The notes under the pieces were generated by a model. That model was not told the origin of the DNA. It saw nothing but the letters and a program-made list of their open reading frames with translations, and ran no database searches. The translations under genes and the position numbers were made by a program. This document shows positions 5,730-34,839 of a stretch of DNA of 64,000 nucleotides, in pieces; within the stretch, counting starts at the first letter, position 1, and each line of letters opens with the position of its first letter. The stretch is from Oegoconia quadripuncta (lineage: Eukaryota; Arthropoda; Insecta; Lepidoptera; Autostichidae): the NCBI GenBank assembly GCA_949316235.1, contig OX438747.1:36223601-36287600 (forward strand), in the 5' to 3' direction.

Positions 5730-5888
5730 GGGGTGCGACGTCAGACAACCTCCTCGTGTGCTCGGTGGTTACTTGTCCTCCTGGATACGTCTGGGAGGAA
5801 CGGTAGCTGCTGGGCCGGTGCACCCTGGGCATCGGCCAATAACTTCCCACTTTAAGGGTTCTTATTGGCCGATGGCGAATAGTCTGAC
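5730..5888 (+). ncRNA. HDV-like self-cleaving ribozyme, GAG-A1
   Basis: P1 pairs GGGGTGC (5,730-5,736) with GCACCCT (5,820-5,826), with a terminal G-U wobble. P2 pairs GTCAGAC (5,740-5,746) with GTCTGAC (5,882-5,888). P3 pairs ACC (5,748-5,750) with GGT (5,817-5,819). L3 begins TCCTCG (5,751). GGG follows P1 and could form P1.1. P4 is a perfect 13-bp stem, CATCGGCCAATAA (5,830-5,842) with TTATTGGCCGATG (5,862-5,874). Joining segment CGAA contains the predicted catalytic C at 5,876. Predicted cleavage is just before 5,730, at the telomere repeat/element boundary. L3 holds an extra hairpin (5,767-5,808). Confidence 0.85.
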
Positions 5889-6409
5889 AAGGGGGGTGCC
5901 CCTCCCAGTGTCCCTCTGATTTCAGAGGGCACAGCGGGATGGGGCAGGGGGTGGGTCCCTATGTGGGACAGGGGCGGGTCGGCTCCCGCCAATTTGGTGG
6001 GATGTCCGGCAGGCGCTATGTGCGCCGCCGTCGGAGGAGGGGCTTCGCCACCCGCTCGCGTTCCGTAACCGGCGATCACACCTCAACGACCCCGCTGGTG
6101 GCTCCAGTGGGAGATGTCGTGTGTTTCGCTGGCCGGAGGGCTTGCCTTAATTGGCCGGCCCGCGGGAAGGAAAACCCTATAAAACCAGCCCAAGTTTCGG
6201 CGCTGGGGCACGCGGCGCCGAATGCCCTCGTCGTCCTACTTTCTTTCGAAAGTGGGATGACGAGGGAGGGTGGAGGGCATACTCCACCCACTAGCGGCCA
6301 CCCTGGGGTACCGCCCGCCCCCCCAGGCGTAATAGGGTTACCCGGGTGCAGAGGGCACCGCCCGGGTGGACCACGTATTTCCCTCCTGCTCGTGGGAACA
6401 CTAATCCAG

Positions 6410-8821
6410 ATGTTCAGATCCCCCCCCCAAAAAACAAGATCAGATAAGACCTACAGTTCTAAAGGCCGAACACCGCCCACCAGGGTGTTCGTAAACAGCA
6501 TGCAGAGGGAGGTCGAGGAGTCGGGTGCGGATGGAGGGTGTAAAGACCTCCTCGGGCCCTCCCATGAGCCGACAGCACCGCAGGGTGTCCAGCCAGTCCA
6601 GGTGCTGTCGGACTCCGATAACTCAGTGTCGTCACCGGCTTTGTTACTGTCGTCACCGGCCCCGGGGATTCCGCCCCGGAGCCGAAGACGACAACAACTC
6701 CTGGTGAAGCCGGCGACCAGTAAAGTGGTACTGGACGTTGACAGGAGTGTTGCGGCAGGGAGTGAGGAGTTCTTCTCTCCGCGGAAGGTCCTACCTAGGG
6801 ATCTCCCGGAGGAGGCACTTCTCACCCCCGAACCAAAAAGCAAGACGGCGCCGGAATTCCCGGTGCAAACCGACCTTGCTAGGAAGAGGTTGAGGGCGTC
6901 CGCTTCGTCGCAGTCGGATGAGTCGTCGAGTGGCGTCGACTCGTCCGACCCAAGACCGATGGCGAGGCCCCGAGTAGAAGGGCCCGCCAAACGGGGCAAA
7001 AAAGGACGCCCTCCCACTACTGGACGCTACGTGGGGCTGTCCAAAGCCAAAGCGGAGTTCCTGGAGCTCAGGCGCCAGGAACTCCAGCTGCAGGCAGAGG
7101 AGGAGGCGGCGGAGATGGTCCGCGAAGTGAGCAGCAGGAGGATGGCTCGTATCGCGGATGCATCTCCGACGACGCTAAGCAGCGGAGCGGGGGAGGATGG
7201 TGGCAGCACTGCCGAGGCCCTGGATAAACAGGTCCAAAGCAGTGTTGAGACTATCCTCCATATTGCTACGAAGTCAGGCAACCTTAAGGGCACTTTTGTG
7301 AAAGCCCTTAAGGTTGCCGCCGCCTCGATCAAGGAGGCTACGGAGGAACTGAGGCAGCGCACTGCCTCAGAGGAGACAGCGAGACTGACCCGGGAAAATG
7401 CTCGCCTAAAAGCCGAGATGGCCGAGCTCCGTAAGGAGCTCGGTGAGCTCCGGGTCAGTCTCGAGCAGACGAGGGTGCAGGTGCAGTTCTCCCCCCCAGG
7501 GAAGGACCAGGACCTCGAGCGCACCATCATGGAGCGAATCGGCACCATGGTGGGGGCTAGGCTCGAGGCCCTGGAGGGGAGACTGCTCCCTGCAAGTAGA
7601 GAGAGGCCGCCGTTAGCGGCGGACAACAGGAGGTCGGCCAGCCCACTTAGGCCGTCTACGTCCGGCGCGGCCACTGTCGCCGCCCCAAGCAGGCGCTCAC
7701 CAACGCCTGCAATAAGCGCTGTGCCCCCCTCTCCGGTACAAACCATCGCGCCGGGGAATAAGGGCACTAAAAAGAGAGGGAAGGGTCCGGCGAAGAAAGG
7801 GTCTGCCGGACCCTCCAAGCAGGCTCCCAAGGAGCCCAGGCCACTGCCACCCGCGCCCGCGTCCATGGACGAGAGCTGGGCGGCGGTGGCGAAAAAGAAG
7901 AAGAAGCCCCGGGCGCAAAGCTCCGGGACTCAGTCTGCGGCTGCTAGACCTCCCGCCCCCCCCTCACAAACACCGAGGGGGAAGAAGAAGAGGAAGGGAG
8001 GTTCTAGGAAGAAGCAAGGGGCCGGGTTGAGGCCCCCGCGGTCGGCGGCAATCGTCCTGACCCTCCAACCGGGGGCTCAGGACAGGGGGGTGACGTACAA
8101 GGCGGTGATGCTCAAAGCTCAGGCCAGCATCCAGCTGGACAGCCTCGGCATCACCGCCTTGAGGTCACGTACCGCGAGGACGGGGGCCCAGATCCTGGAG
8201 CTCCCGGGCGCCACCAGCGGCGCCAAAGCGGACTCCCTCGCCGCGAGGATGAGGGAGGTCCTTGACGAGGCCGATGTGCGAGTAACCAGGCCCATGAAGT
8301 GCGTAGAGTTACGCATTTCGGGCCTGGACGAGTCGGCCTCGTCGGAGGGGGTCGCCGCTGCGGTGGCGAAAGCGGGGGCGTGTGCGGTCGAGGCGGTCAA
8401 AGCTGGCCAAATCGTCCGCACACCCTTCTCGCAGGGGACCTGCTGGGTCCGGTGCCCGGTGGCGGCCGCCAAAACGGTGGCCGCGGGGCGATTGTTGGTG
8501 GGCTGGGTCTCCGCCCAAGTCAAGTTGTTGGAGACCCAGCCGACGAGGTGCTACCGCTGCCATATGTGTGGTCACATAAGGCAGCGGTGCACCTCGACGA
8601 TCGACCGCAGCGGGGAATGCTTCCGCTGCGGTGAAACGGGCCACATGGCCAGGGACTGCTCGGCCGCCCCCCGCTGCTCACTGTGTGTGGCAGCGGGAAA
8701 GCCCGCCGACCACAGGGCAGGGAGCAAGGCATGCACGGGGGCGATAGGCCCCAGACGTGCAGCCCCAAAAGCGACCGGACGGATTCCGGCCGCTGCTGCT
8801 CCTAATCAGGACCGAGGGTGA
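6410..8821 (+). CDS. ORF1 Gag-like protein (GAG-A1)
   Basis: 803 residues. The start is the ATG at 6,410, because the MxxxPPxK N terminus with a C-rich codon run recurs in the other copies; the frame is open further upstream (from 5,939) but that extension is not conserved. Order of parts: Ser/Pro-rich N terminus; RGRPPTTG-type basic motif; leucine-heptad coiled coil at about residues 320-365; Lys/Pro-rich linker; an RRM-like or self-association core; three zinc knuckles at C714 (CX2CX4HX4C), C737 (CX2CX4HX4C) and C756 (CX2CX8HX6C). Family role: RNA binding, RNP assembly and telomere targeting. No ORF2 follows, so RT must come from elsewhere. The frame is intact, which suggests selection. Confidence 0.88.
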   Translation: MFRSPPQKTRSDKTYSSKGRTPPTRVFVNSMQREVEESGADGGCKDLLGPSHEPTAPQGVQPVQVLSDSDNSVSSPALLLSSPAPGIPPRSRRRQQLLVKPATSKVVLDVDRSVAAGSEEFFSPRKVLPRDLPEEALLTPEPKSKTAPEFPVQTDLARKRLRASASSQSDESSSGVDSSDPRPMARPRVEGPAKRGKKGRPPTTGRYVGLSKAKAEFLELRRQELQLQAEEEAAEMVREVSSRRMARIADASPTTLSSGAGEDGGSTAEALDKQVQSSVETILHIATKSGNLKGTFVKALKVAAASIKEATEELRQRTASEETARLTRENARLKAEMAELRKELGELRVSLEQTRVQVQFSPPGKDQDLERTIMERIGTMVGARLEALEGRLLPASRERPPLAADNRRSASPLRPSTSGAATVAAPSRRSPTPAISAVPPSPVQTIAPGNKGTKKRGKGPAKKGSAGPSKQAPKEPRPLPPAPASMDESWAAVAKKKKKPRAQSSGTQSAAARPPAPPSQTPRGKKKRKGGSRKKQGAGLRPPRSAAIVLTLQPGAQDRGVTYKAVMLKAQASIQLDSLGITALRSRTARTGAQILELPGATSGAKADSLAARMREVLDEADVRVTRPMKCVELRISGLDESASSEGVAAAVAKAGACAVEAVKAGQIVRTPFSQGTCWVRCPVAAAKTVAAGRLLVGWVSAQVKLLETQPTRCYRCHMCGHIRQRCTSTIDRSGECFRCGETGHMARDCSAAPRCSLCVAAGKPADHRAGSKACTGAIGPRRAAPKATGRIPAAAAPNQDRG

Positions 8822-8833
8822 TTTCCACCCTTT

Positions 8834-9112
8834 GGGGTCCTGGGGCTGCCGCGAGGACATGGCGCTACACACCCCTGAGGAATGCCCAGTTTGGGCAGGG
8901 GAGCGCCATGACCCCGCGTCGCAGCGGTAGGGGGACGACCTCTCCTCCCGGCCATAGCTTAAGCTGTGGCCGGTGACGAGAGGTCGTAGGAAGTGGTTCT
9001 CTCCTCCTGCGAGATCGCGGTCTCGCAGGGGGAGGCGGCGGAGAGTGAGATCCCTCCTCTCCGCCGCAGCAGTGCTGGGACCCGGAGGAGATGTGTATAT
9101 CTCCTCCCCCTA
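8834..9112 (+). pseudogene. Remnant of SART ORF2 C terminus (GAG-A1)
   Basis: After the ORF1 stop the DNA aligns with the last ~90 codons of SART-A ORF2. It covers the end of the CCHC motif (His-x4-Cys, then PVW and a GER), the AVGDD-like stretch and the distal part. The frame is broken. It shows that GAG-A arose by deleting roughly codons 1-955 of ORF2. The sequence is retained as 3'UTR in all three GAG-A copies (also about 30,303-30,582 and 34,136-34,415), so it may have an RNA role. Confidence 0.75.
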
Positions 9113-9487
9113 CCAGGCGGGGCCTGGGTGGTGATCCGGGGGGATCACCGCCCACACATAGGCCCCGCGAGAAGGCGCGCGTGGTGTTTCCCACGCGCCT
9201 TCTAGAGGTGGCTGGACCAGGCGATTCCTCCCTGCTCCAGCCCAGAGGAGGGCCCGCCGCCGCCGTTATCCTGGCGGCGGGCATCGCGCTGGCGTGGCTG
9301 CGGACGAATACCGAGATGGTACCCGTGGCCACGTCGCATAGGTGTGCGCGAGGGAACACCGGTGGGTTTTTAGTGGGTATTCCGCCTCCTACCATCCGTT
9401 GGTCATGGAGGCGGGGAGTCCCACATATCCCTGCTGCGGGCCCCCGCCTGCGGCAGGTCGAACGCGTAAATGCGTTTTCCCACCGTC
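9113..9487 (+). other. Structured 3'UTR of GAG-A1
   Basis: Contains GGTGATCC/GGATCACC, the long hairpin GAAGGCGCGCGTGG/CCACGCGCCTTC (9,171-9,202), a GCCGCC/GGCGGC stem, a GGAACACC...GTTTTTAGT core (9,353-9,380) shared by all families here, and a terminal GCGTTTTCCC motif before poly(A). In SART1 of Bombyx the 3'UTR is needed for recognition by the RT, so these are candidate RT-binding structures. Confidence 0.65.
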
Positions 9488-9512
9488 AAAAAAAAAAAAA
9501 AAAAAAAAAAAA

Positions 9513-9530: not shown

Positions 9531-9547
9531 TTTTTTTTTTTTTTTTT

Positions 9548-9811: not shown

Positions 9812-9842
<31 letters not shown>

Positions 9843-10013: not shown

Positions 10014-13000
10014 TCAGTCCGTGACCTCGCGTACCGCTAATAGTTTTTCCACTACAGCCGCGTTACGGTTCCTTATTGCCATTTTCAGATTGTACTCGAG
10101 AATAGAGTTCTTTGTGGCTGAAACTGCAAGGCTTATAAGGCGTCCCGTCGCATCCTCACTGTCGTCTGTGTAGTATACACAGCTTTTAGTGTGGCGTGAC
10201 ACTGCCACTACTGCGTGCGGGACGCTGTCGTGCAGTTTTGTCCTCTTGGTGGCTGCGCGCACTATCACAACCCTCTCGTAGGTAAGTCCCTGGGCCTCAT
10301 GTATCGTGAGAGTGCGTGATCCTTCTCCCTCCCCGTAGCCCTTGCTTTTAAGGGCTTCCTTATCCGCCTGCGTGTGTACCAGGAAAAGAGTGTTGGGGAG
10401 AGTGTGAGGTATCATTGCGTCCGAATACCTATCGAGTCGCAGGGATCTCACTCGGAGTGTGGACGCATACACGCCATTGTAGACTTCGCTAAGGGCGTAT
10501 GCAACGTCCATCGGGCTGCGATGCGTGCACAGAAGCTCCTGCGTGAATGTTGCCAGGAGGCTTGGGCGGTTATATCGCAGGGGGAAGAGATTCTCCCTGT
10601 CGATATAAGGCAGCTGGTTTATGTCTCCGATGAGGAGGATGTTTTCCGCTCCAGTGAGCCGAGTCGCGAGTACTATGGCCCCAAAGTGGTTCATGAGGGC
10701 CTCATCGACCATCAGTCTTTCACTCGTCCCTCTCTCGGACTCTTTCAGGCCGTTGACTAGGACGGAGGCCATAGTTCTCACTCTTCTCTCAGCTGCTCGG
10801 CCCACCCTGGATATGAGTATCTTTTTAAGATCCTTAGCTGCCTCGGTGGTCGTGGTGATGATAATGTCTTTATCAGCGTTAAAGTTGGCCACCACCCAGG
10901 TTGTTTTGCCGCAGCCGGGGACCCCGTTGACCCAATCAATTTTCGGCACCGCCCATGACACGAAGGCGTCTCCTGCTTCCAACGCAGATTCCTCCTCCTC
11001 TATTCTCTTAAGGATCTGTTCGTCTAGCATTACCTTCGTGCATCGGGCAGTGACAACTATCGGGTCACCAGGGGGGGTCTTATAAGTCATTCTGCCTGTG
11101 TTTTCCGTCTTTTCATCGTCGAGCGGGACGAAACCATCGGTTCCACTAAACGCCATCATATGACGACTCATTTGTGTCCCCTTAAGAACTTGGGAAGAGT
11201 CGTTGTTATATATGGTGGCGTCCGCTGCCTCGAGTTTCTCCTTCAATAGTTGGATCTGGATTTTTGATCCTCTCTCACCCAGGTGGTAGGCTTGCAGGAT
11301 GCTCTGGCAAGTCAGGGTGTTTGCCGTCCTGTTGGCTAATGTTACGGCTTTGAACTCGAGGAAAGCGTTAATATAGTGGTCCAGCGGCCCCGCAGCGGTT
11401 CGGAGGACGGGCGGAATGACCTGTCCCATGTCGGCTTTGGTTCGTGCCACCGGGGGTTCCATCCATTCCCGAGTGGTCTCTTTGGAGCTGGAGGCTGCTT
11501 GCACTGGTGCCAAGGATCCTATTTGTTTTTTCCTTTTTGTTGGAAAGCTTTGTGATATTGCGTTGAGCGCACTGCACATCGCTTTCAGCGTCTGGGTATT
11601 CTTCTTGTGGGCTGGACGCCCGGACTCCGCCGCCCTTGCCTCCGTGATCTTTTGTTGGAGGCGTTCAGAGCCGCTGACTACTGCCGGATTGGGTGTCGGG
11701 TGGCCTCTGCTGTCTGTGGGCCGGGTGAGAGTGCCTGGTTGCCGCGGTATTAGGTAGTTCAGGTTTCCCCCTCTCTCCTCATACGCGACCACCTCATGGT
11801 GTTCTGAGGCTCTCACGCACCCTATATAATCTGCGGCCGTCCCTTTGATGAAACCTATCACAGCAGCGTCAACGCTGATAACTCTGGGTGCGGCGTCGGC
11901 CGTCTTTGCCGTCTGTCCCATTTTGGTTAGCACACTACACGCTTGGGCGAACTGGGATTCTTCTGGACTGCCTTCGAATAGTACGATCGTCTTGTTTTTT
12001 GATCGGACCAGTCGACAGCGTCTGCCCGCCAATTCTACCTCGGCAAGCGCGTTGAGCACTTTGCGCTTCATTGTGATCTTGTGTGTGCCACCATTGAGTA
12101 AGACGGCCAGGCCCGGAGAAATCTCTACGCTCCTCCCACCCACAGGGTTGCAGAAGCCTATGCCCAGTCTCTCTGTGTTGTTGTCCATGAATAGTGCCAC
12201 CCCGCGGACCCGTATTCCTGGCGTTCCAATCTCCCCGCAATCCAAGATTTGTAATTCTGTGGTGCGGTTTGACAAGCTTTTCGTGGCTGCCGGGGTCGCT
12301 GTGGTGGCCTGATGTTGTGTGTCTGGATGTCCTTGTGAGGTTCGTACAGAAGCGCAGGTGGCGTTTCTCTTGGTTGCTATCCGGAAGATGTGCTCCGCGT
12401 ATGCCAAGAAAAACGGTCTCTTCTTGTCGTCGTGCATGATGCCGCTAAGGCTATCCGCGTCCACTTTCTGATCCAGTATGGCTTCCAGATCCATACGTGC
12501 CGCCAGGAAGCGGGGGCATTCCAAAGTCACGTGCCATACGGACTCTATGACTTCCGCGTCACACTCGCATCCGGGGCTGTCCTTCAGCTTAAATCGGTGC
12601 AGGTATTCCGCGATCCCTCCGTGGCCCGTCAAAACTTGTACATGTATGGGCGTCAGTTTCGTCTTTCTGACCATGCGGTATGCTAGGTCCACATATGGGA
12701 GAAAGATCTTGGTGACTGTCCCTGTACTGGAGGTTTCGTATCTGGCTTGCCAGATTCGTATGGATTCCTCCCTGATTTTCCTTTTGACGTATGACAGAGG
12801 GACTCGGTCGTAGTCCGCATGGGTGTTCGACTTGTGCGCCGCCGCTTTTGCTAGTTCGTCTGCGCGTTCGTTGCCAGCTGTCCCCATGTGAGCTCTGAGC
12901 CAAAACAGGTGTACTTCTCCTCCTCTTTTCCTAATTTCCCTTATGTTGTCCTTGATGGATTTCGCCAAGGGATGGCTTGTACGTGGATTTTTGAGGAGAT

Positions 13001-14860
13001 CCAGTGAGGATCTAGAGTCAGATAGTACACTGGCTGTTCGCACACCACTGAACTTCACCTGCCTGACCGCTCTGTATAGAGCGTATAGCTCCGATTGGAA
13101 AACCGTGCATGCAGAACCTAGTTGGAATGACAGGGAGTCGACTTCCTTGCCATCCTCCCACCATGTCATTGCTGCTCCCACTTTCCCTTCGTTTTTGCTA
13201 CCGTCCGTGTATATTTGGGGGCCGGCAATTTGGTGTTCGTCCAGGGATTCCACTAGCTCATACTCCGTTGTTATGAGTCTGGAAGGATGGGGCTGGTCGG
13301 CGTGGCTTGCCCGACTTTCGAGCTGTTTGCCTGGCGGCAAGTAATCCTGTGATCGCCCTGTTTTGACTTTATAGAGGGTGGCCGCCTCCTTGATTTTTAG
13401 GTCAAGGGGCAATAACCCCGAGAGAACCAGCGCGGAAGTAAGCGACACCGTGCGGTATGCCTTGCAGATTTTCTGTGCAAATCTCCGCTGCAGCGCATTA
13501 AGTTGGGTCTTGACCATCTCCAGCTCCACCGCTGGAGCCCATACTGCCGCGGCATACATCACGATGGGTTCGATTACAGCGACGTATATGGTTCTGATGA
13601 TGTCTCCATTTAAGCCCCAGGTCACCTTTGCGGCGCATGCGAGTTGTTTGTAGATGTCCGCTGATTTTCTGCATACCGCGGATACGTGCGCTTTGAAGGT
13701 GAGTCTGTGGTCTATTATGAGCCCAAGGAGCTTCATTTCCTTGACAAAAGTCAACCTTTTGCCTGCCATATATAGTTCGGGGTCTTTGTACTTGAGCTTC
13801 TTTGTGATGACCATGGCGTTGGTCTTATGTGGTGCAAAGTTTAGCTTGTTCCGCTGGCCCCATTTCACTACGGTGTCTAAGGTAGTGTTGGCTGAAAGCT
13901 CCAGGACGTCGGCCGAGTGATCCGAGAACACCATCACCACGTCGTCCGCGAACGCCTGAGCGTAAACTCCCGCCTCAGTGAGTTTGTGAAGTAGCGAGTC
14001 CAAGATCACGTTCCAAAAAGTTGGACCTCCAATGGAGCCCTGTACGCAACCTTTTGTCGTCTTTTTCTCGGAGGTCGCTCTAGCGTAGTTAACTGTGATG
14101 CTACGTTCACTGAGATAGGAGTCCACCAGGGCATATAGGTTTCTGGGGCACCTCTTGGCAACGAGTTGTTTTTTTAGGGCTGGCCACCATGCGTTGTCAA
14201 AGGCCCCCTCTATGTCTAGGGAGATTATAAGGATTATCTTCTTTGCGTTAATCTCCTTATGAACATGCTCCATCAGGTCATAGAGGGCGTCCTCGGTTCC
14301 ACGCTGCGGCATGAAGCCATACTGTCTGTCGTTTAGTGTTGGAAGGATGTGCCAATGGAGTCGACCCACCATCAGTTTCTCTACGATCTTCCCTAGCACT
14401 GATAGCAGGCCTATTGGTCTGTAAGACTTCGGCTGGGTGTAGTCGTCCTTTCCAGGTTTGCGGATGATGACGACATGAGCCACTTTCCACTGCTTTGGGA
14501 AGTACGCTAGCTCTAGACATTTGTTGGCCAGTGCCACGAATGCTTCCTTTCCGCTGCGGATCGCGGCTATGCAGATGTCAGCTGTTAATCCATCCGGTCC
14601 GGGTGCTTTTTTAGGATTCAGTGTCTGTAATACTGATTCCAGCTCCTCCGGAGAGAAAGGAGGATCATCTTCGGCCAAATCCGCTATCTGTTTGGCCGGT
14701 ACACCATCCGTCCGCCTTCGGATGCGCATGTGTTGGATTGTGTCGGTGGCGGGTGAGTCGTCAGGGTAGAAAGTCCTGGACAGGAGTTTGGCGGATTCCT
14801 CCGGACTCAACGTGCTTCCATCGACGCCTCGGAGCAAGGTGTCCTCCTGTCTTCTAGCCG
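10014..14860 (-). CDS. ORF2: RT, RNase H and SF1 helicase, 5'-truncated (TRAS-H)
   Basis: Continuous frame of about 1,615 codons from the truncation point to a TGA at 10,014. There is no true start; counting from a TTG at 14,837: RT at about 20-480 with SLDIEGAFD (~200) and FADDVV (~293); RNase H at about 540-680 starting YTDGS; a cysteine motif CECD...H...C (~770); an unassigned region (~860-1,270); then a complete superfamily 1 helicase. Helicase motifs, all intact: GxPGCGKTT (Walker A, 10,896-10,931), VDEA (about 10,700), GDINQLP, THRS, HEAQG and VSRH. This helicase type is typical of positive-strand RNA viruses. Published work reports virus-derived SF1 helicases fused to TRAS-family ORF2 in insects. 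Role in retrotransposition unknown; unwinding of RNA or of the RNA-DNA hybrid is a guess. Confidence 0.9.
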
Positions 14861-14912
14861 TTAGGTTAGGTTAGGTTAGGTTAGGTTAGGTTAGGTTAGG
14901 TTAGGTTAGGTT
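14861..14912 (+). repeat. Telomere repeat (TTAGG)n
   Basis: 52 bp, about ten units, between the truncated 5' side of TRAS-H and the ribozyme of S1. Confidence 0.97.
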
Positions 14913-15069
14913 GGGGTGCGATGTCAGACAACCTCCTCGTGTGCCTGATGGCTACTTGTCCCCCTGGATACGTCTGGGGGGAACGGTAGTCGTTGGGCCG
15001 GTGCACCCTGGGCATCGGTCAACAACTTCCCTTTAAGGGTTCTTGTTGACCGATGGCTAATAGTCTGAC
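14913..15069 (+). ncRNA. HDV-like ribozyme, S1
   Basis: Same fold as in GAG-A1. P4 is CATCGGTCAACAA with TTGTTGACCGATG: two base pairs differ from the GAG-A form and both partners changed. The joining segment is CTAA instead of CGAA, still fitting the C-N-R-A pattern. Confidence 0.82.
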
Positions 15070-16305: not shown

Positions 16306-16324
16306 GGTTAGGTTAGGTTAGGTT
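16306..16324 (+). repeat. Telomere repeat (TTAGG)n
   Basis: 19 bp between the poly(A) of S1 and GAG-B. Confidence 0.95.
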
Positions 16325-19242: not shown

Positions 19243-19276
19243 GGTTAGGTTAGGTTAGGTTAGGTTAGGTTAGGTT
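19243..19276 (+). repeat. Telomere repeat (TTAGG)n
   Basis: 34 bp between GAG-B and the truncated SART-C. Confidence 0.96.
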
Positions 19277-26766: not shown

Positions 26767-27140
26767 CGAGGCTGGGTGGTGACTCGGGGGGGTCACCACC
26801 CTCACGCAAGCCTCGCGAGAAGGCGCGCGTGGTGTTCCCACGCGCCTTCTTGAGGTGGCTGGACCGGGGGTATTCCTCCCCGCTCCAGCCCAGAGGAGGG
26901 CCCGCCGCCGCTATTAGCCGTGGCGGCGGGCACCGCGCTGGCGTGGCTGCGGACGAATACCAGATGGTACCCGTGGCCACGTCGTCAACGGTGCGCCCGA
27001 AGGAACACCCAGGAGTTTTTAGTCGGTAGGCCGGCACCTTCTGTGCCGGAGTCCGACATAATCCGCCCCCCTCCCCCGAGGAGGGCGGATAAGCATGAGC
27101 GTTTCTCCTGGCTAAAAAAAAAAAAAAAAAAAAAAAAAAA

Positions 27141-27224
27141 GGTTAGGTTAGGTTAGGTTAGGTTAGGTTAGGTTAGGTTAGGTTAGGTTAGGTTAGGTTA
27201 GGTTAGGTTAGGTTAGGTTAGGTT
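27141..27224 (+). repeat. Telomere repeat (TTAGG)n
   Basis: 84 bp, about 17 perfect units; with 41,513-41,596 the longest tract in the window. Confidence 0.97.
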
Positions 27225-27383
27225 GGGGTGCGACGTCAGACAACCTCCTCGTGTGCTCGGTGGTTACTTGTCCTCCTGGATACGTCTGGGGGGAACGGTA
27301 GCTGCTGGGCCGGTGCACCCTGGGCATCGGCCAATAACTTCCCACTTTAAGGGTTCTTATTGGCCGATGGCGAATAGTCTGAC
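27225..27383 (+). ncRNA. HDV-like ribozyme, GAG-A2
   Basis: Same pairings as in GAG-A1, CGAA joining segment, P4 of the GGCCAATAA type. Confidence 0.85.
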
Positions 27384-27903
27384 AAGGGGGGTGCCCCTCC
27401 CAGTGTCCCTCTGATTTCAGAGGGCACAACGGGATGGGGCAGGGGGTAGGTCCCTATGTGGGACAGGGGCGGGTCGGCTCCCGCCAATTGGTGGGATGTC
27501 CGGCAGGCGCTATGTGCGCCACCGTCGGAGGAGGGGTTCTCGCCACCCCCTCGCGTTCCGTAACCGGCGAACCCACTTCAACGACCCCGCTGGTGGCTCC
27601 AGTGGGAGATGTCGTGGGTTTCGCTGGCCGGAGGGCTTGCCTTAATTGGCCGGCCCGCGGGAAGGAAAACCCTTTAAAACCAGCCCAAGTTTCGGCGCTG
27701 GGGCAACGCGGCGCCGAATGCCCTCGTCGTCCTACTTTCTTTCGAAAGTGGGAGGACGAGGGAAGGTGGAGGGCATACTCCATCATGAGCGGCCACCCTG
27801 GGGTACCGCCCGACCCCCCAGGCGTAATAGGGTTACCCAGGTGCAGAGGGCACCGCCTGGGTGGACCGAGTATTTCCCTCATACTCGTGGGATCAGTATT
27901 AAG

Positions 27904-30291
27904 ATGTTTAAAACCCCCCCCAAACCAAAAAAGTCACCAGCATCCAATAAGACCTACAGTAACAAAGGCCGAACCCCGCCCACGCGGGTGTTCGTAAATT
28001 CGCAGAGGGAGGTCGAGGAGTCGGGCGCGGATGGAGGGTATAAAGACCTCCTCGGGCCCTCCCACGAGCCGACAGCACCGCAGGGCGTTCAGCCAATTGT
28101 GCTGTCGGACTCCGATATATCGTTGTCGTCGCCGGCTTTAATGCTGTCGTCACCGGCCCCAGGGATACCGCCTTGGAGCCGAGGACGACAACAGGTTCTG
28201 GTGAAACCGGCGACCAAATTCACGGACGAGACAGATGGGAGCGAGGAGTTCTTCTCTCCGCGGAGGGTCCTGTCAAGGGACCTCCCGGAGGAGGCACTCC
28301 TCACCCCGGATCCCAAAGAAGGGGCGGCGCCACAATTTCTGGCGCCCACGGACCAGGCCCGCAAGAGGTCCAGAGCGTCCGCAACACAGTCGGAGGGGTC
28401 GTCAAGTGACGGCTCCTCCGACTCGAGACCCCTGGTGAGGCCCAGAGTATCGGGGCCCGCCAAGCGGGGTAAGCGAGGACGCCCACCTACTACTGGACAG
28501 TACGTGGGCCTGTCCAAAGCCAAGGCGGAGTTCCTGGAGCTGAGGCGCCAGGAACTCCGACTGCAGGCAGAGGAGGAGGCGGCGGAGATGGTCCGCGAGA
28601 CGAGCATTAGGAGAGCGGCCCGTCTTTCGGACGCATCCCCGATGCTAAGCGGCGTCGAGTCGGAGGGGACCAACACTGTTGAGGCCCTGAATAAGCAGGT
28701 GCTCGACAGTGTTGGGTCCATTTTGCACGTAGCGGCAAAGTCCGGCAGCCTGAAGGGCACGTTTGTGAAAGCCCTGAAGGTTGCCGCCGCCTCTATTAAG
28801 GAGGCTACCGAGGAGCTGAGGCAGCGTACTGCCTCAGAAGAGACAGCGAGACTGACCCGTGAAAATGCTCGCCTAAAAGCCGAGATGGCCGAGCTCCGTA
28901 AGGAGCTCGGCGAGCTCCGGGTCAGTCTCGAGCAGACGAGGGTGCAGGTGCAGTTCTCCCCCCCAGGGAAGGACCAGGACCTCGAGCGCACCATCATGGA
29001 GCGAATCGGCACCATGGTGGGGGCTAGGCTCGAGGCCCTGGAGGGGAGACTGCTCCCTGCGAGGAGAGAGAGACCGCCGTTAGCGGCGGACAACAGGAGG
29101 TCGGCCAGCCCACATAGGCCGTCTACGTCCGGCGCGGCCACTGTCGCCGCCCCAATCAGGCGCTCACCAACGCCTGTAGTAAGCGATGTGCCCCCTTCCC
29201 CGGTACAAACCACCGCGCCGGGGAAAAAGGGCAATAAAAAGAGAGGGAAGGGTCCGGCGAAAAAAGGGTCTGCCGGACCCTCCAAGCAGGCTCTTAAAGA
29301 GCCCAGGCCACTGCCACCCGCGCCCACGTCTATGGACGAGAGCTGGGTGGCGGTAGCCAAAAAGAAGAAGGAGAGGCCCCGGGCGCAAAGCTCCGGGACT
29401 CAGCCTGCGGCAGCTGGACCTCCCGCTCCCCCCTCAACAACACCGAGGGGGAAGAAGAAGAAAAAGGGAGGTCCTAGCAAGAAGCAAGGCGCGGGGCTGA
29501 GGCCCCCGCGGTCGGCGGCAATCGTCCTGACCCTCCAATCGGGGGCTCAGGACAGAGGGGTCACGTACAAGGCGGTGATGTTAAAGGCTCAGTCCAGCAT
29601 TCAGCTGGACAGCCTCGGCATCACCGCCTTGAGGTCACGGACCGCGAGAACGGGGGCCCAGATCCTGGAGCTCCCGGGCGCCACCAGTGGCGCCAAAGCG
29701 GACGCCCTCGCCGCAAGGATGAGGGAGGTCCTTGACGAGGCCGATGTGCGTGTGACCAGGCCCATGAAGTGCGTAGAGGTACGCATTTCGGGCCTGGACG
29801 AGTCGGCCTCGTCGGAGGGGGTCGCCGCTGCGGTGGCGAAAGCGGGGGCGTGTGCGGTCGAGGCGGTCAAAGCTGGCCAAATCGTCCGCACACCCTTCTC
29901 GCAGGGGACCTGCTGGGTCCGGTGCCCGGTGGCGGCCGCCAAAACGGTGGCCGCGGGGCGATTGTTGGTGGGCTGGGTCTCCGCCCAAGTCAAGTTGCTG
30001 GAGACCCAGCCGACGAGGTGCTACCGCTGCCATATGTGTGGTCATATAAGGCAGCAGTGCACCTCGACGATCGACCGCAGCGGAGAATGCTTCCGCTGCG
30101 GTGAAACGGGCCACATGGCCAGGGACTGCTCGGCCGCCCCCCGCTGCTCACTGTGTGTGGCAGCGGGAAAGCCCGCCGACCACAGGGCAGGGAGCAAGGC
30201 CTGCACGGGGGCGATAGGCCCCAGACGTGCAGCCCCACGGGCGGCCGGACGGATTCCGGCCGCCGCTGCTCCAAATCAGGACCGAGGGTGA
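27904..30291 (+). CDS. ORF1 Gag-like protein (GAG-A2)
   Basis: 795 residues; start at ATG 27,904 (MFKTPP-type N terminus, as in the other copies) although the frame is open from 27,646. It has the acidic/Ser-rich N terminus, the GRPPTTGQYVGL motif, a coiled coil, a basic Pro-rich linker, the conserved core and three zinc knuckles (CYRC, CFRC, CSLC). It differs from GAG-A1 mostly by substitutions and small in-frame indels in the first 300 residues. Stop TGA 30,289-30,291 is followed by an ORF2 remnant, not by ORF2. Confidence 0.88.
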   Translation: MFKTPPKPKKSPASNKTYSNKGRTPPTRVFVNSQREVEESGADGGYKDLLGPSHEPTAPQGVQPIVLSDSDISLSSPALMLSSPAPGIPPWSRGRQQVLVKPATKFTDETDGSEEFFSPRRVLSRDLPEEALLTPDPKEGAAPQFLAPTDQARKRSRASATQSEGSSSDGSSDSRPLVRPRVSGPAKRGKRGRPPTTGQYVGLSKAKAEFLELRRQELRLQAEEEAAEMVRETSIRRAARLSDASPMLSGVESEGTNTVEALNKQVLDSVGSILHVAAKSGSLKGTFVKALKVAAASIKEATEELRQRTASEETARLTRENARLKAEMAELRKELGELRVSLEQTRVQVQFSPPGKDQDLERTIMERIGTMVGARLEALEGRLLPARRERPPLAADNRRSASPHRPSTSGAATVAAPIRRSPTPVVSDVPPSPVQTTAPGKKGNKKRGKGPAKKGSAGPSKQALKEPRPLPPAPTSMDESWVAVAKKKKERPRAQSSGTQPAAAGPPAPPSTTPRGKKKKKGGPSKKQGAGLRPPRSAAIVLTLQSGAQDRGVTYKAVMLKAQSSIQLDSLGITALRSRTARTGAQILELPGATSGAKADALAARMREVLDEADVRVTRPMKCVEVRISGLDESASSEGVAAAVAKAGACAVEAVKAGQIVRTPFSQGTCWVRCPVAAAKTVAAGRLLVGWVSAQVKLLETQPTRCYRCHMCGHIRQQCTSTIDRSGECFRCGETGHMARDCSAAPRCSLCVAAGKPADHRAGSKACTGAIGPRRAAPRAAGRIPAAAAPNQDRG

Positions 30292-30952
30292 TTTCCACCC
30301 TCGGGGTCCTGGGGCTGCCGCGAGGACATGGCGCTACACACCCCTGAGGAATGCCCAGTTTGGGCAGGGGAGCGCCATGACCCCGCGTCGCAGCGGTAGG
30401 GGGACGACCTCTCCTCCCGGCCATAGCCCATGCTGTGGCCGGTGACGAGAGGTCGTAGGAAGTGGTTCTCTCCCCCTGCGAGATCGCGATCTCGCAGGGG
30501 GAGCCGGCGGAGAGTTAGATCCCTCCTCTCCGCCGCAGCAGTGCTGGGACCCGGAGGAGATGTGTATATCTCCTCCCCCTACCAGGCGGGGCCTGGGTGG
30601 TGATCCGGGGGGATCACCGCCCACACATAGGCCCCGCGAGAAGGCGCGCGTGGTGTTCCCACGCGCCTTCTAGAGGTGGCTGGACCAGGCGATTCCTCCC
30701 TGCTCCAGCCCAGAGGAGGGCCCGCCGCCGCCTGTTCTGGCGGCGGGCATCGCGCTGGCGTGGCTGCGGACGAATACCGAGATGGTACCCGTGGCCACGT
30801 CGCATAGGTGTGCGCGAGGGAACACCGGTGGGTTTTTAGTGGGTATTCCGCCTCCTACCATCCGTTGGTCATGGAGGCGGGGAGTCCCACATATCCCTGC
30901 TGCGGGCCCCCGCCTGCGGCAGGTCGAACGCGTAAATGCGTTTTCCCACCGT

Positions 30953-31018
<66 letters not shown>

Positions 31019-31020
<2 letters not shown>

Positions 31021-31032
31021 TTAGGTTAGGTT
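31019..31032 (+). repeat. Telomere repeat, short
   Basis: GGTTAGGTTAGGTT, 14 bp between poly(A) and the next ribozyme. Confidence 0.95.
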
Positions 31033-31191
31033 GGGGTGCGACGTCAGACAACCTCCTCGTGTGCTCGGTGGTTACTTGTCCTCCTGGATACGTCTGGGGG
31101 GAACGGTAGCTGCTGGGCCGGTGCACCCTGGGCATCGGCCAATAACTTCCCACTTTAAGGGTTCTTATTGGCCGATGGCGAATAGTCTGAC
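31033..31191 (+). ncRNA. HDV-like ribozyme, GAG-A3
   Basis: All stems as in GAG-A1; CGAA joining segment. Confidence 0.85.
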
Positions 31192-31712
31192 AAGGGGGGT
31201 GCCCCTCCCAGTGTCCCTCTGATTTCAGAGGGCACAGCGGGATGGGGCAGGGGGTAGGTCCCTATGAGGGACAGGGGCGGGTCGGCTCCCGCCAATTGGT
31301 GGGATGTCCGACAGGCGCTATGGGCGCCGCCGTCGGAGGAGGGGCTTCGCCACCCACTCGCGTTCCGTAACCGGCGAACCCACTTCAACGACCCCGCTGG
31401 TGGCTCCAGTGGGAGATGTCGTGGGTTTCGCTGGCCGGAGGGCTTGCCTTAATTGGCCGGCCCGCGGGAAGGAAAACCCTTTAAAACCAGCCCAAGTTTC
31501 GGCGCTGGGGCAACGCGGCGCCGAATGCCCTCGTCGTCCTACTTTCTTTCGAAAGTGGGAGGACGAGGGAAGGTAGAGGGCATACTCTACCACTAGCGGC
31601 CACACCCTGGGGTACCGCCCGACCCCCCAGGCGTAATAGGGTTACCCGGGTGCAGAGGGCACCGCCCGGGTGGACGACCCCTTCCCTCCTGATCGTGGGA
31701 ACAAAAATCAAG

Positions 31713-34124
31713 ATGCTCAGAACCCCCCCCAAAAACAAATCACCAGATAAGTCCTACAGTTATAAAGGCCGAACCCCGCAAACGCGGGTGTTCGTTAACA
31801 AGCAGAGGGAGGTCGAGGAGTCGGGTGCGGTTGGAGGGTTTTCAGACCTCCTCGGGCCCTCCCACGAGCCGACAGCACCGCAGGGTGTCCAGCCAGTCGT
31901 GCTGTCGGACTCCGATATATCGGTGTCGTCACCGGCTCTGTTGCTGTCGTCACCGGCCCCGGGGGTTCTGCCCCGGAGCCGAGGACGACAACCACTTCTG
32001 GTGAAGCCGGCGACCAGAGCCAGAATCATGGACGAGGACAGTAGCGGTGCTGCAGGGAGCGAGGAGTTCTTCTCTCCGCGCAAGGTCCTACCTAGGGACC
32101 TGCCGGAGGAGGCACTCCTCACCCCCGATCCTAAGGGAAAAGTGGTACCGGATTTCCCGGAGATGACGGACCAGGCCCGCAAGAGGCTGCGGGCGTCCGC
32201 GTCACAGTCGGAGGGGTCGTCAAGTGGCGACTCCACCGACTCAAGACCCCCGGTGAGGCCCAGGCTATATGGGCCCGCCAAGCGGGGTAAGAGAGGACGC
32301 CCGCCTACAACCGGTCAGTTTGTGGGCCTGGCAAGAGCCAAAGCTGAACTCCTGGAGCTCAGGCGCCAGGAGCTTCAGCTGGAGGCAGAAGAGGAGGTGG
32401 CGGGGATGGTCCGCGAGGCGAGTGGCAGGAGGATTGCGCGCCTTGCGGACTCATCTCCGAACTTGAGCGGCGGAGAGGAGGGGGGTGGTGCCGGCGCTGA
32501 GGCCCTGAACAAACAGGTGCAGAGCAGTGTCGACACCATCCTCCACATTGCTAGTAAGTCGGGCAACCTTAAGGGTACCTTTGTAAAGGCCCTTAAGGTC
32601 GCCGCCGCCTCAATACGGGAGGCTACTGAGGAGTTGCGGCTAAGGTCCGCAACAGAAGAGACGGCCAGGTTGGCCGCGGAGAACGCCCGCCATAAGGCTG
32701 AGCTAGCTGAACTCCGTAAGGAGGTGGCGGAGCTGCGGGCCAACCTGGACACTGAGCGGTCCCTTAGGGAGTCGCAGGTGACGCAGCGGTTCTCTCCTCC
32801 AGGGAAGGAGCAGGACTTCGAGCGCACCATCATGGAGCGAGTAGGCACCATGATGGGGGCGAGGCTCGAGGCCCTGGAGGAGAGGCTGCTCCCCGCGAGG
32901 AGGGAGAGGCCGCCGTTAGCGGCGGACTTGAGGAGTCCGCCCAGGCCGTCCCCGCCCGGCGTGAGCACCATCGCTGCTTCAAGCAGGCGCTCACCACCAT
33001 CGTCGCTGCCCACGGCAGGAGTTGTGTCCCCTTCCCCGGCACAAACCACCGTGCCGGGACAAAAGGGCAAAAAGAAGAGAGGGAAGGGTCCGGCGAAGAA
33101 AGGGTCGGCCGGACCCTCCAAGCAGGCTCCTAAAGAGCCCAGGCCACTGCCACCCGCGCCCTCGTCTATGGACGAGAGCTGGGTGGCGGTGGTCAAAAAG
33201 AGAAAGCCCCGAGCACAAAGCTCCGGGGCAAATAAGGTGGCTGCCAGACCTCCCGCCCCCCCCTCAAAAACATCGAGGGGGAAGAAGAAGAAGGAAAAGG
33301 GAGGTCCTAGCAAAAAGCAGGGGGCTGGGTTAAGGGCCCCCCGCTCGGCGGCGATTACCCTGACCCTCCTACCGGGGGCCATTGAAAGAGGGGTAACATA
33401 CAAGGCGGTGATGCTCGAGGCTCAGGCCAGGATTGAACTGGCCAGCCTCGGCATCACCTCCTTGAGGTCACGCACGGCGCGAACTGGCGCCCAGATCCTG
33501 GAGGTCCCGGGCGCCACAAGCGACGTTAAAGCAGACTCCCTCGCCACAAGGCTGAGGGAGGTCCTCGATGAGGACGTGGTTCGAGTGTCCAGGCCCACGA
33601 AGTGCGTAGAGTTACGCATTTCGGGCCTGGACGAATCGGTCGAGCCGGAGGTGGTTGCCGCCGCGGTGGCGAGAACGGGGGAGTGTGCGGTCGAGGCGGT
33701 CAGGGCTGGCCAAGTCGTCCGCACACGCTTCGCTCAGGGGACCTGCTGGGTCAGGTGCCCGGTGGCGGCCGCCAAAAAGGTGGCCGCGGGACGTTTGTTG
33801 GTGGGCTGGGTCTCCGCCCAGGTCAAGCTGTTGGAGACCCAGCCGACGCGGTGCTACAGGTGCCATATGACTGGTCACGTCAGGCACCAGTGCACGTCGG
33901 CGATTGACCGCAGCGGGGAATGTTTCCGTTGCGGTCAAACTGGTCATATGGCCAAGGAGTGCTCGGCCGACCCCCGCTGTTCACTGTGTGTGGCAGCGGG
34001 TAAGCCCGCCGACCATCGGGCAGGGAGCAAGGTCTGCACGGGGGCGAAAGGCCCCAGACGTGCAGCCCCATGGGCGGCCGAACGATACACGGCCGCCTCT
34101 GCTCCTAATCAGGACCGAGGGTGA
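31713..34124 (+). CDS. ORF1 Gag-like protein (GAG-A3)
   Basis: 803 residues from ATG 31,713 (frame open from 31,650). Same domain order as GAG-A1. The segment around residues 190-300 (GRPPTTGQFVGLARAKAEL onward) is closer to SART-A1 ORF1 than to GAG-A1, which points to exchange between families. Zinc knuckles CYRC, CFRC and CSLC are complete. The frame is intact despite many substitutions relative to its siblings, as expected if the Gag product is under selection. Confidence 0.88.
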   Translation: MLRTPPKNKSPDKSYSYKGRTPQTRVFVNKQREVEESGAVGGFSDLLGPSHEPTAPQGVQPVVLSDSDISVSSPALLLSSPAPGVLPRSRGRQPLLVKPATRARIMDEDSSGAAGSEEFFSPRKVLPRDLPEEALLTPDPKGKVVPDFPEMTDQARKRLRASASQSEGSSSGDSTDSRPPVRPRLYGPAKRGKRGRPPTTGQFVGLARAKAELLELRRQELQLEAEEEVAGMVREASGRRIARLADSSPNLSGGEEGGGAGAEALNKQVQSSVDTILHIASKSGNLKGTFVKALKVAAASIREATEELRLRSATEETARLAAENARHKAELAELRKEVAELRANLDTERSLRESQVTQRFSPPGKEQDFERTIMERVGTMMGARLEALEERLLPARRERPPLAADLRSPPRPSPPGVSTIAASSRRSPPSSLPTAGVVSPSPAQTTVPGQKGKKKRGKGPAKKGSAGPSKQAPKEPRPLPPAPSSMDESWVAVVKKRKPRAQSSGANKVAARPPAPPSKTSRGKKKKEKGGPSKKQGAGLRAPRSAAITLTLLPGAIERGVTYKAVMLEAQARIELASLGITSLRSRTARTGAQILEVPGATSDVKADSLATRLREVLDEDVVRVSRPTKCVELRISGLDESVEPEVVAAAVARTGECAVEAVRAGQVVRTRFAQGTCWVRCPVAAAKKVAAGRLLVGWVSAQVKLLETQPTRCYRCHMTGHVRHQCTSAIDRSGECFRCGQTGHMAKECSADPRCSLCVAAGKPADHRAGSKVCTGAKGPRRAAPWAAERYTAASAPNQDRG

Positions 34125-34786
34125 TTTCCACCCTCGGGGTCCTGGGGCTGCCGCGAGGACATGGCGCTGCACACCCCTGAGGGATGCCCAGTTTGGGCAG
34201 GGGAGCGCCATGACCCCGCGTCGCAGCGGTAGGGGGACGACCTCTCCTCCCGGCCATAGCCCAAGCTGTGGCCGGTGACGAGAGGTCGTAGGAAGTGGTT
34301 CTCTCCCCCTGCGAGATCGCGATCTCGCAGGGGGAGCCGGCGGAGAGTGAGATCCCTCCTCTCCGCCGCAGCAGTGCTGGGACCCGGAGGAGATGTGCAC
34401 ATCTCCTCCCCCTACCAGGCGGGGCCTGGGTGGTGATCCGGGGGGATCACCGCCCACACATAGGCCCCGCGAGAAGGCGCGCGTGGTGTTCCCACGCGCC
34501 TTCTAGAGGTGGCTGGACCAGGCGATTCCTCCCTGCTCCAGCCCAGAGGAGGGCCCGCCGCCGCCGTTATCCTGGCGGCGGGCATCGCGCTGGCGTGGCT
34601 GCGGAGGAATACCGAGATGGTACCCGTGGCCACGTCGCATAGGTGTGCGCGAGGGAACACCGGTGGGTTTTTAGTGGGTATTCCGCCTCCTACCATCCGT
34701 TGGTCATGGGGGCGGGGAGTCCCACATATCCCTGCTGCGGGCCCCCGCCTGCGGCAGGTCGAACGCGTAAATGCGTTTTCCCACCG

Positions 34787-34839
<53 letters not shown>

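Follow-up and report, generated by a model that had tools for sequence, protein, structure and literature searches.

The 64,000-nt stretch of DNA analyzed here (the window) comes from Oegoconia quadripuncta (Lepidoptera; Autostichidae; assembly GCA_949316235.1, contig OX438747.1, positions 36,223,601 to 36,287,600 of the forward strand). Positions below are window coordinates unless another frame is named, all features lie on the + strand, and genome-wide counts are pattern searches of the window's own genome. The window contains three copies of an element, GAG-A, that begin after ...GGTT and whose terminal poly(A) abuts GGTTA repeats. GAG-A copy 1 (GA1; 5726 to 9512, poly(A) 25 nt) consists of ORF1, which encodes Gag (6410 to 8821, 803 codons counted from the homologous ATG), a deletion junction whose filler carries an inverted repeat spanning the TGA stop (8808 to 8844), an ORF2 remnant plus proximal 3'UTR (8844 to 9358), and a 3' cloverleaf RNA with a closing stem and three hairpins (9359 to 9487). 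Copy 2 (GA2; 27221 to 31018, poly(A) 65 nt) has an ORF1 of 795 codons (27904 to 30291), the junction at 30278 to 30313, and the cloverleaf at 30825 to 30953. In copy 3 (GA3; 31029 to 34839, poly(A) 53 nt), the corresponding parts are an ORF1 of 803 codons with a zf-CCHC at residues 736 to 751 (31713 to 34124), the junction (34111 to 34146), and the cloverleaf (34660 to 34786). A reading of the sequence alone had proposed that all three copies encode an intact Gag of about 800 residues, and each of these ORF1s is indeed free of stops.

Related elements lie elsewhere in the window, and the same arrays bring together autonomous SARTs, UTR-only short forms, and gag-only copies. Full-length SART-A elements are FL1 (34860 to 41512; ORF1 35546 to 37960; ORF2 37960 to 41136, with endonuclease [EN] and reverse transcriptase [RT]) and FL2 (49000 to 55667; ORF1 49676 to 52117; ORF2 52117 to 55293); FL3 (60008 to 64000) is a SART-A cut by the window end, with ORF1 split over two frames. 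X1 (19273 to 27140) joins a SART-B fragment (19273 to about 22420, EN and RT) to the 3' part of a SART-A (ORF2 23590 to 26766), and T1 (41593 to 41856) is a 5'-truncated SART-A-type 3' fragment. Short UTR-only derivatives occur as U1 (14909 to 16305), which has a SART-A 3' end, and as the tandem groups U2 to U6 (41867 to 48993) and U7 to U9 (55678 to 60002). Because these U elements lack any Gag, encoding Gag is not strictly needed for movement.

GB1 (16321 to 19242), which the sequence-only reading did not include, is a second gag-only element from another SART family, with an ORF1 of 733 amino acids (16742 to 18943) and a poly(A) 276 nt downstream of the stop codon. An initial GB pattern (20 matches) reached just 14 nt past the ORF1 stop and was rejected as proof of gag-only copies; a longer pattern was therefore used, and it found the GB boundary 19 times genome-wide, identifying a second gag-only lineage. 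Two GB ends in fetched loci were also read.

Alignment of GA1, GA2, and GA3 to FL1 runs up to FL1 position 3079, the end of ORF1, and resumes at FL1 position 5981, in the last ~300 nt of ORF2. Thus, about 2.9 kb carrying EN and RT (FL1 3080 to 5980) is missing at an identical place from every copy, and the three share one deletion junction. The junction contains a filler of ~30 nt whose inverted repeat spans the ORF1 stop, and all three copies have a common 2-nt insertion in the ORF2 remnant. These observations confirm the existence of GAG-A as a gag-only element with a shared junction. The last ~300 nt of ORF2 are kept. As a correction to the sequence-only reading, the terminal ~130 nt are unlike those of FL1 and the other full-length elements here. 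The 5'UTR and ORF1 together are 79 to 81% identical to SART-A in nucleotide sequence, and the 5'UTR is 94 to 96% identical along its whole length. Since the EN/RT segment is absent, GAG-A is a SART derivative and not an autonomous SART.

Genome-wide distribution and the Gag reading frame

A search for the junction, as the sequence-only reading had suggested, returned 77 matches genome-wide and none for a reversed-pattern control, so the junction is not a product of chance. (A tail pattern matched 408 places and was not taken as a copy census.) On long contigs, 71 of 74 junction copies lay within 200 kb of a contig end; three matches on short contigs were excluded from this count. Sixty-six of the 71 end-proximal copies share one orientation relative to the end, with the poly(A) facing the terminus, and junction-bearing copies also occur at three internal places.

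We read 43 of the 77 copies (40 fetched plus the 3 in the window), all with the exact junction; outside this set are 4 exact-junction copies and 30 with 1 to 3 junction mismatches. Internal stops or frameshifts in ORF1 were found in 0 of the 43. A complete, open ORF1 of 773 to 809 codons was present in 39 copies, with two CCHC-type motifs in 39/39. The other four are 5'-truncated with the remainder colinear in one frame; an early reading of these as broken was dropped because they are merely truncated. In L025, which is intact, the usual first ATG is absent, and translation would begin 30 codons further on. Among the 30 copies with junction mismatches, parts of L066, L067, and L068 were read; these diverged copies are all internal and truncated or frame-broken, and carry the same junction.

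Indels in ORF1 preserve the frame. In an unguided nucleotide alignment of 10 representatives, 0 of 39 gap blocks in ORF1 were frameshifting; in the flanks, 24 of 28 were (11/14 in 43 tails and 13/14 in 34 5'UTRs). The dN/dS ratio was 0.24 to 0.35 between 10 Gag subfamilies and ~0.33 within subfamilies, where 18 multi-step codons were dropped before counting, a few sub-lineage splits dominate the counts, and the most recent substitutions are not numerous enough for a separate test of selection. GAG-A and full-length elements have traded ORF1 segments, so dN/dS cannot by itself demonstrate that selection acts on gag-only copies as such, and the values for the three window copies are insufficient as proof of it since their ORF1s are mosaic. 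Neither of the results named in the sequence-only reading as counting against selection for Gag, mostly broken frames and dN/dS near 1, appeared in the copies read; its premise of simple divergence needs correcting, as the copies are mosaics.

Taken with the location and structure described above, these data support the interpretation offered by the sequence-only reading: GAG-A is likely a gag-only, non-autonomous SART-type LINE of the TTAGG arrays at chromosome ends, which borrows RT in trans and whose Gag is under purifying selection. GAG-A RNA would be transcribed from the 5'UTR held in common with SART-A, would yield an intact CCHC Gag, and would end in the structured 3' cloverleaf and poly(A). 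The EN and RT of a co-resident autonomous SART would then bind in trans to this end, open the target at TT^AGG, and insert a copy of the RNA by target-primed reverse transcription. The deletion probably arose just once and long ago; it is now found with 10 or more distinct Gags, which would be held under purifying selection and have swapped segments with full-length elements. Gag may be kept for the element's own RNA, and GAG-A may have a role at the telomere.

The 3' end and the candidate RT donor

The GAG-A 3' end forms a covarying RNA cloverleaf. Closing-stem pairs, counted by script, were 7/7 in 13/13 3' ends, several of which are close copies, and 4 of the 7 pairs showed two-sided changes between families. 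Two SART-B ends were 71% and 76% identical to the GAG-A 3' end and SART-A was 60% identical, and the modern SL1 apex of GAG-A is nearly the same as in one SART-B-class element. Of the complete 3' ends, 42 were examined, and every one was of the GAG-A type; L048, which has no 3' end because the contig ends there, was excluded from the 3' and flank counts. SART1Bm proteins are described as mobilizing a reporter RNA bearing their 3'UTR in trans and as requiring that 3'UTR (PMC7265360). Because the cloverleaf is closer to SART-B than to SART-A, a SART-B-class element is the most likely source of the borrowed RT.

It is possible, though less likely, that the donor is instead SART-A, with which GAG-A shares its 5'UTR, and that the SART-B-like 3' end is irrelevant. 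The identity of the 5'UTRs fits this idea, as does the abundance of SART-A RT copies: none of the best 91 SART-A RT matches had a stop in the matched part, and 72 lay within 200 kb of an end. In addition, L068, which is gag-only and internal, has a 3' end of the SART-A type, so more than one donor may serve, or there may have been a change of donor. The uniformly GAG-A-type complete 3' ends, with their lower identity to SART-A, and the SL1 apex nevertheless argue for a SART-B-class donor. Among the best 91 SART-B-class RT matches, one had a stop, and 76 of 78 on long contigs were near an end.

The sequence-only reading would have been undermined by copies with an intact RT that share the GAG-A 3' end; none were found among the best 91 SART-A and best 91 SART-B RT matches. 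We used 92 GAG-A-type 3' ends, leaving out 5 three-mismatch matches; 22 ends lacked the canonical junction, and upstream sequence was read in all but 15 of these. No SART-A RT among those matches lay within 2.5 kb upstream of the 92 ends. For two of the ends a SART-B RT match did lie upstream; in each case it belonged to a SART-B element that has its own 3' end and poly(A), with a 5'-truncated GAG-A behind it. One is L057 (a SART-B-class ORF2 at C4:38.888 Mb), for which the adjoining L061 shows the element's own 3' end and poly(A), with a 216-bp truncated GAG-A directly after it; the other is locus L046 on C17. Both were rejected as RT-bearing GAG-A. Since each RT list holds the best 91 matches, these searches cover close matches to either class and could overlook an RT intermediate in similarity.

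A variable Gag in a uniform chassis and its spread

Among the window copies, variation in ORF1 is far greater than in either flank. Median synonymous divergence of ORF1 was 0.42 between representatives, compared with 0.009 to 0.034 for the tail, and most of the 5'UTR was also far lower; much of the history of ORF1 may thus lie outside the present gag-only background. Constraint as the cause of low chassis divergence was ruled out for the ORF2 remnant: it differs from SART-A by 0.28 to 0.30, about like ORF1 (0.22 to 0.32), but among GAG-A copies by only 0.02 to 0.03. Exchange between GAG-A and full-length elements is visible, as GA3 and FL1 reach 96% identity where GA3 and GA2 show 73%, and the observed clustering of compatible sites was attained in 0 of 500 permutations. 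GAG-A combines a uniform chassis with a Gag cassette that is divergent and recombining.

These features raise the alternative that Gag is a passenger, with recombination repeatedly supplying the gag-only chassis with the ORF1 of full-length SARTs, and with the observed purifying selection having acted on those donors. The excess of ORF1 synonymous divergence, the visible exchange, and two copies (L036 and L044) that carry segments from other subfamilies are consistent with it. We nevertheless consider it somewhat unlikely. Over the 3'-most ~960 nt of ORF1, the commonest pattern, at 63 sites, groups the three window GAG-A copies against the three full-length elements; the best 40 of 323 candidate ORF1 relatives (87 to 100% identity) all end at the junction and so are gag-only; and frames were unbroken in every copy read.

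More tentatively, the arrays may embody a division of labor in which gag-only elements, with two or more separate origins (GAG-A, which has at least 10 coexisting Gags, and GB), are kept for Gag while autonomous SARTs provide the enzyme. GAG-A would then be a chimera of a SART-A-type Gag and promoter with a SART-B-class cloverleaf, tracking its RT host by swapping cloverleaf parts and renewing Gag by exchange of ORF1 segments. If true, GAG-A would be a case of convergence on HeT-A in which switching of the RT host can be seen.

Spread by telomeric DNA-level processes (unequal exchange or break-induced replication) in the manner of MoTeR arrays, rather than by retrotransposition, seems improbable. 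One such event did occur: GA1 and L024, which have the same poly(A) and flanks 31,984 bp apart on one chromosome, are a DNA-level duplication, and GAG-A, GB, and SART-B matches recur at the same offset on C6. Identical ORF1 copies on several chromosomes and the precedent of MoTeR in the blast fungus, as described in PMC7367193, also speak for this route. Against it, the 42 copies show 41 distinct poly(A)/flank signatures (poly(A) 21 to 90 nt), two 5'-truncated copies start immediately after the poly(A) and GGTT repeats of a different element, and junction-bearing copies sit at the three internal places.

That these elements are dead internal-deletion products arising repeatedly from full-length SARTs is scarcely credible, since, although other deletion forms exist (U, GB, and GAG-C at L058/L062), one junction with the same filler recurs in 77 copies, including the diverged internal L066 to L068, and Gag is unbroken in the 43 read.

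Comparison with other telomeric and ORF1-only elements

Among telomeric elements, HeT-A has been the reference case of one that retains Gag alone. It is Jockey-like and is added to the chromosome end with its poly(A) facing inward, toward the centromere. GAG-A differs in being SART-like, inserted into TTAGG repeats, and oriented with its poly(A) toward the terminus; by alignment, and not by a tree, it derives from the SART-A of the window, whose ORF2 matches include an R1DM-type protein. HeT-A is described as encoding Gag but no enzymes, probably obtaining RT from TART or TAHRE, and forming same-orientation arrays at chromosome ends, with a highly variable gag of several subfamilies whose frames are open in the RNAs studied (PMC5537684, PMC3235214). 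GAG-A likewise encodes Gag without RT or EN and has variable gag subfamilies with open frames; of its 74 copies on long contigs, 71 are within 200 kb of an end, 66 of these in one orientation, and 3 are internal. The proposed parallel thus holds for lifestyle but not for mechanism. In HeT-A, gag and 3'UTR subfamilies are reported to correspond (PMC3235214), whereas in GAG-A the gag and 3' parts do not. A second such case, in another LINE family and at telomeres that still have TTAGG repeats, would allow one to ask what Gag is kept for, and the near-constant chassis makes fast evolution of telomeric Gags directly testable in the hypervariable cassette.

Gag-only LINEs as such are already known (HeT-A, HAL1); no gag-only SART was found in the literature searched. 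HAL1 is not known to carry the 3' end of another family. HAL1 (half-L1) of mammals is a LINE derivative coding only ORF1p, with several independent origins (PMC5753468). GAG-A is likewise a multicopy, ORF1-only LINE derivative, but HAL1 derives from L1 and GAG-A from SART, and telomere targeting does not figure in the available portion of that HAL1 account. MoTeR2 of Magnaporthe telomeres, an element of telomere repeats without RT that shares its termini with an RT-bearing partner (PMC7367193), resembles GAG-A, which is also RT-less, located in telomere repeats, and shares terminal parts with RT-bearing SARTs. As that source describes it, however, MoTeR2 has its RT region replaced by unrelated sequence of no obvious function, has no intact Gag, and points its 5' end toward the chromosome end.

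SART elements such as SART1Bm are described as targeting TTAGG with a TT^AGG junction and poly(A), their 3'UTR being recognized in trans (PMC7265360). GAG-A agrees in target and poly(A) and differs in the loss of EN and RT; GGTT(A) repeats follow the poly(A) in most copies, the exceptions among the 42 3' ends being L052 and L055, followed by other sequence, and L041, followed by GTTAGG. The cell assay for SART1Bm trans-retrotransposition reported in that work already exists for testing the purpose of Gag. SIDEs such as Persaeus (CR1, Lepidoptera), which are internally deleted derivatives with a LINE partner (PMC6740152), resemble the U elements of the window; GAG-A differs in keeping a full coding Gag. 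A scan of IMG/VR with ORF2 gave zero matches, and the sole Rfam match in the window was mir-3389, inside ORF2.

GAG-A structure in the array and across the genome

SART-type LINEs inserted in (TTAGG)n fill most of the window, arranged head-to-tail on the + strand with poly(A) abutting GGTT(A) repeats. Alignment identified full-length SART-A elements (FL1, FL2, and FL3, the last truncated by the window end), T1 (one copy of a short, 5'-truncated SART-A-type 3' fragment), and X1 (19273-27140), a SART-B fragment fused to a SART-A 3' part, each with ORF2 open as far as present. The same strand carries three copies of the gag-only GAG-A lineage (GA1, 5726-9512; GA2, 27221-31018; GA3, 31029-34839), one gag-only element of another SART family (GB1, 16321-19242), and UTR-only derivatives of ~1.4 to 1.5 kb each (U1 to U9; 14909-16305, 41867-48993, and 55678-60002), which have SART-A 3' ends. 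The U elements are up to 99.9% alike, and extra GGGGT units open several of them. The ORF1 of FL3 (60688-63118) is spread over two frames and is the sole broken one among the three SART-A ORF1s starting in the window. Matches to Rfam mir-3389 above the cut-off lie antisense within SART-A ORF2 in three copies (25485-25551, 39855-39921, and 54012-54078, - strand), and what Rfam lists as a microRNA family may thus be transposon sequence. Reading frames of other elements occupy 2047-3555 and 10014-14729 on the - strand; the latter is a 1571-aa open frame with RT, RNase H, and viral superfamily-1 helicase domains, and it fits the TRAS elements bearing a viral helicase that are described in Lepidoptera (PMC5563155). 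Named protein matches for the window were mainly lepidopteran, with some from ants, and the top identity (78%, covering 38% of ORF2) was to a Leguminivora protein.

The sequence-only reading had proposed three Gag-encoding copies sharing one deletion, and this was borne out. Alignment of GAG-A with FL1 runs to the end of ORF1 and restarts in the final ~300 nt of ORF2; ~2.9 kb of FL1 is absent at the same place in GA1, GA2, and GA3, and ORF1 is open in all three. At this junction, the ORF1 stop sits within an inverted repeat carried by the filler, and the three copies have a 2-nt insertion in the ORF2 remnant in common.

The host genome (622,649,726 bases in 45 contigs; the window is C6:36223601-36287600) was searched with a 24-nt junction pattern allowing up to 3 mismatches, with the reversed pattern as a control. 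The junction is abundant, with 77 places against 0 for the control, and terminal: 71 of the 74 matches on long contigs lie <200 kb from an end, where 1.3% would be expected. They are spread over 26 ends at a median distance of 27 kb, and poly(A) points to the terminus in 66 of these 71. The remaining 3 long-contig matches are internal, and another 3 are on short contigs. Among the 43 copies read, every one with an exact junction, ORF1 is open across 773 to 809 codons in 39, including the 773-codon L025, which is without the usual first ATG; the other 4 are 5' truncated, with leftover ORF1 colinear in one frame and 97 to 100% identical to an intact copy. The GAG-A-type 3' end is present in all 42 copies with a complete 3' end. 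Poly(A) and flank signatures were distinct in 41 cases across 42 copies, a sign of independent insertion. The identical pair, GA1 and L024, lies 31,984 bp apart (C6:36232407 and 36200423), and GB and SART-B matches there share this offset; therefore, a stretch of the telomeric array has been duplicated on C6.

Three diverged internal loci bear on the age of the junction. L066 (C5) and L067 (C18) have the junction without the 2-nt insertion, retain merely the last few tens of nucleotides of ORF1, and are 81 to 88% identical to GAG-A and 83 to 84% identical to each other. L068 (C4) has the junction and a near-full ORF1 that contains a single frameshift; its 3' end is of SART-A type, and a rearrangement lies beyond it. 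A 26-nt pattern for the GAG-A-type 3' end found no match in any of the three. The junction therefore predates today's uniform GAG-A copies.

GB is a second gag-only lineage. GB1 has a 733-aa ORF1 and a ~275-nt 3'UTR with its own cloverleaf. Its ORF1-end pattern occurs at 20 places in the genome, and a version extended deeper into the 3'UTR occurs at 19 (control, 0). Three copies, GB1, L053, and L055, were read through to poly(A), which begins 261 to 262 nt past the pattern in each and leaves no space for ORF2.

Selection on Gag and exchange of Gag sequences

The frame of GAG-A ORF1 is preserved. When 10 representatives were aligned as nucleotides without a guide, 0 of 39 ORF1 gap blocks shifted the frame, whereas 11 of 14 did so in the tails (43 copies) and 13 of 14 in the 5'UTRs (34 copies); this contrast did not come from picking intact copies, because none of the 43 was dropped for a frameshift. 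Across 10 Gag subfamilies, dN/dS is 0.24 to 0.35 (median, 0.30). Within subfamilies, we counted 72 nonsynonymous and 100 synonymous single-step codon changes after dropping 18 multi-step codons, a nonsynonymous fraction of 0.42 versus 0.69 ± 0.035 in neutral simulation (ratio, ~0.33). However, a handful of splits between sub-lineages account for most of these changes, and segments in two copies are nearer to another subfamily; both points count against reading the changes as selection.

Median synonymous divergence between subfamilies is 0.40 (39 ORF1s), versus 0.019 for the ORF2 remnant plus 3'UTR and 0.042 for the 5'UTR (34 copies, all pairs). Among the values listed, median dS between representatives reaches 0.57 to 0.95 at ORF1 alignment columns 120 to 360 and is mostly lower elsewhere. 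FL1 and FL2 likewise differ more in ORF1 (dS, 0.36) than in ORF2 (dS, 0.06), and the full-length SART-A ORF1s (35546-37960 and 49676-52117) are also hypervariable, with dS peaking at 1.8 within a stretch of 100 columns. Constraint cannot account for the uniform remnant, because the remnant is as far from SART-A as ORF1 is. Exchange is visible directly: over a ~100-nt stretch, GA3 is 96% identical to FL1 versus 73% to GA2, and compatibility of neighboring informative sites exceeded all 500 permutations. With ORF1 exchanged and its flanks uniform, different Gag sequences have therefore been combined with one gag-only chassis (5'UTR, ORF2 remnant, and 3'UTR), and dN/dS is partly a record of earlier backgrounds. 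The selection for Gag suggested by the sequence-only reading agrees with the low ratios between and within subfamilies, but part of that signal was acquired before the present combinations. The nearest 40 relatives of GA3 ORF1 scored (of 323 candidates; 87 to 100% identical) all stop at the junction, which speaks in favor of a gag-only history.

The 3' end, the source of RT, and known systems

A cloverleaf fold, with one closing stem and three hairpins, spans the 103 to 129 nt preceding poly(A) in each of the 13 ends examined; SART-A has just 2 bp in its third hairpin. All 7 closing-stem pairs are kept in 13 of 13 ends, with two-sided changes between families at 4 of 7, although several ends are close copies. 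In the GAG-A copy L027, a run of ~30 T lies within the cloverleaf, just below this stem. In identity, the GAG-A end is nearest to SART-B (71% and 76% for two SART-B-class ends), followed by GB1 (68%) and SART-A (60%), and one of the SART-B-class ends has almost the same first-hairpin apex. SART1Bm proteins are reported to mobilize reporter RNA in trans solely when it carries the SART1Bm 3'UTR (PMC7265360). Given this requirement and the nearer SART-B end, we infer that a SART-B-class RT moves GAG-A.

A junction match lies 450 to 560 nt upstream of 70 of the 92 GAG-A-type 3' ends. Seven of the other 22 were examined, and six could be classed: one is a GAG-A copy that lacks its 5' part and follows a SART-B-class element, three resemble GAG-A with a diverged junction, and two are GAG-C, a further gag-only form with ORF1 fused straight to the 3'UTR (for the second, the matching ORF1 alone was read). 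In L062 (C6:36316401-36317150), a GAG-C copy, ORF1 meets the 3'UTR near the ORF2 stop, and the 3' end is of GAG-A type. Among the RT matches listed (91 SART-A and 91 SART-B-class), no RT-bearing copy shares the GAG-A 3' end: SART-A RT lies within 2.5 kb upstream of 0 of the 92 ends and SART-B-class RT upstream of 2, both belonging to neighboring elements. The SART-A-type ORF2 tail pattern occurs at 408 places, many of them internal among the matches listed (e.g., C1:5004038), and SART-A RT is internal in 10 of 91 matches listed; a close SART-A relative seems to reside outside telomeres.

GAG-A resembles HeT-A, which encodes only Gag and probably borrows RT from TART or TAHRE (PMC5537684, PMC4700185); HAL1, an ORF1-only LINE of several origins but derived from L1 rather than SART (PMC5753468); and MoTeR2, which sits at telomeres, lacks RT, and has its ends in common with MoTeR1 (PMC7367193). 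Bombyx has further SART lineages (PMC10088271), and a term search of that article found no non-autonomous SART. The sequence-only reading took a gag-only SART to be probably undescribed, and none, nor any other non-autonomous SART, was recognized in the portions of the CC-licensed PMC literature covered. Since gag-only LINEs are already known, GAG-A is a variant rather than a new kind; those portions gave no counterpart to a SART that targets TTAGG, encodes only Gag, and ends in the 3' type of a different family.

In the mechanism we propose, the SART-A-like 5'UTR would drive GAG-A RNA, Gag would bind and import it, and EN and RT would come in trans for target-primed reverse transcription at TT^AGG. 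The U elements move without Gag, so movement in these arrays does not strictly require an encoded Gag.
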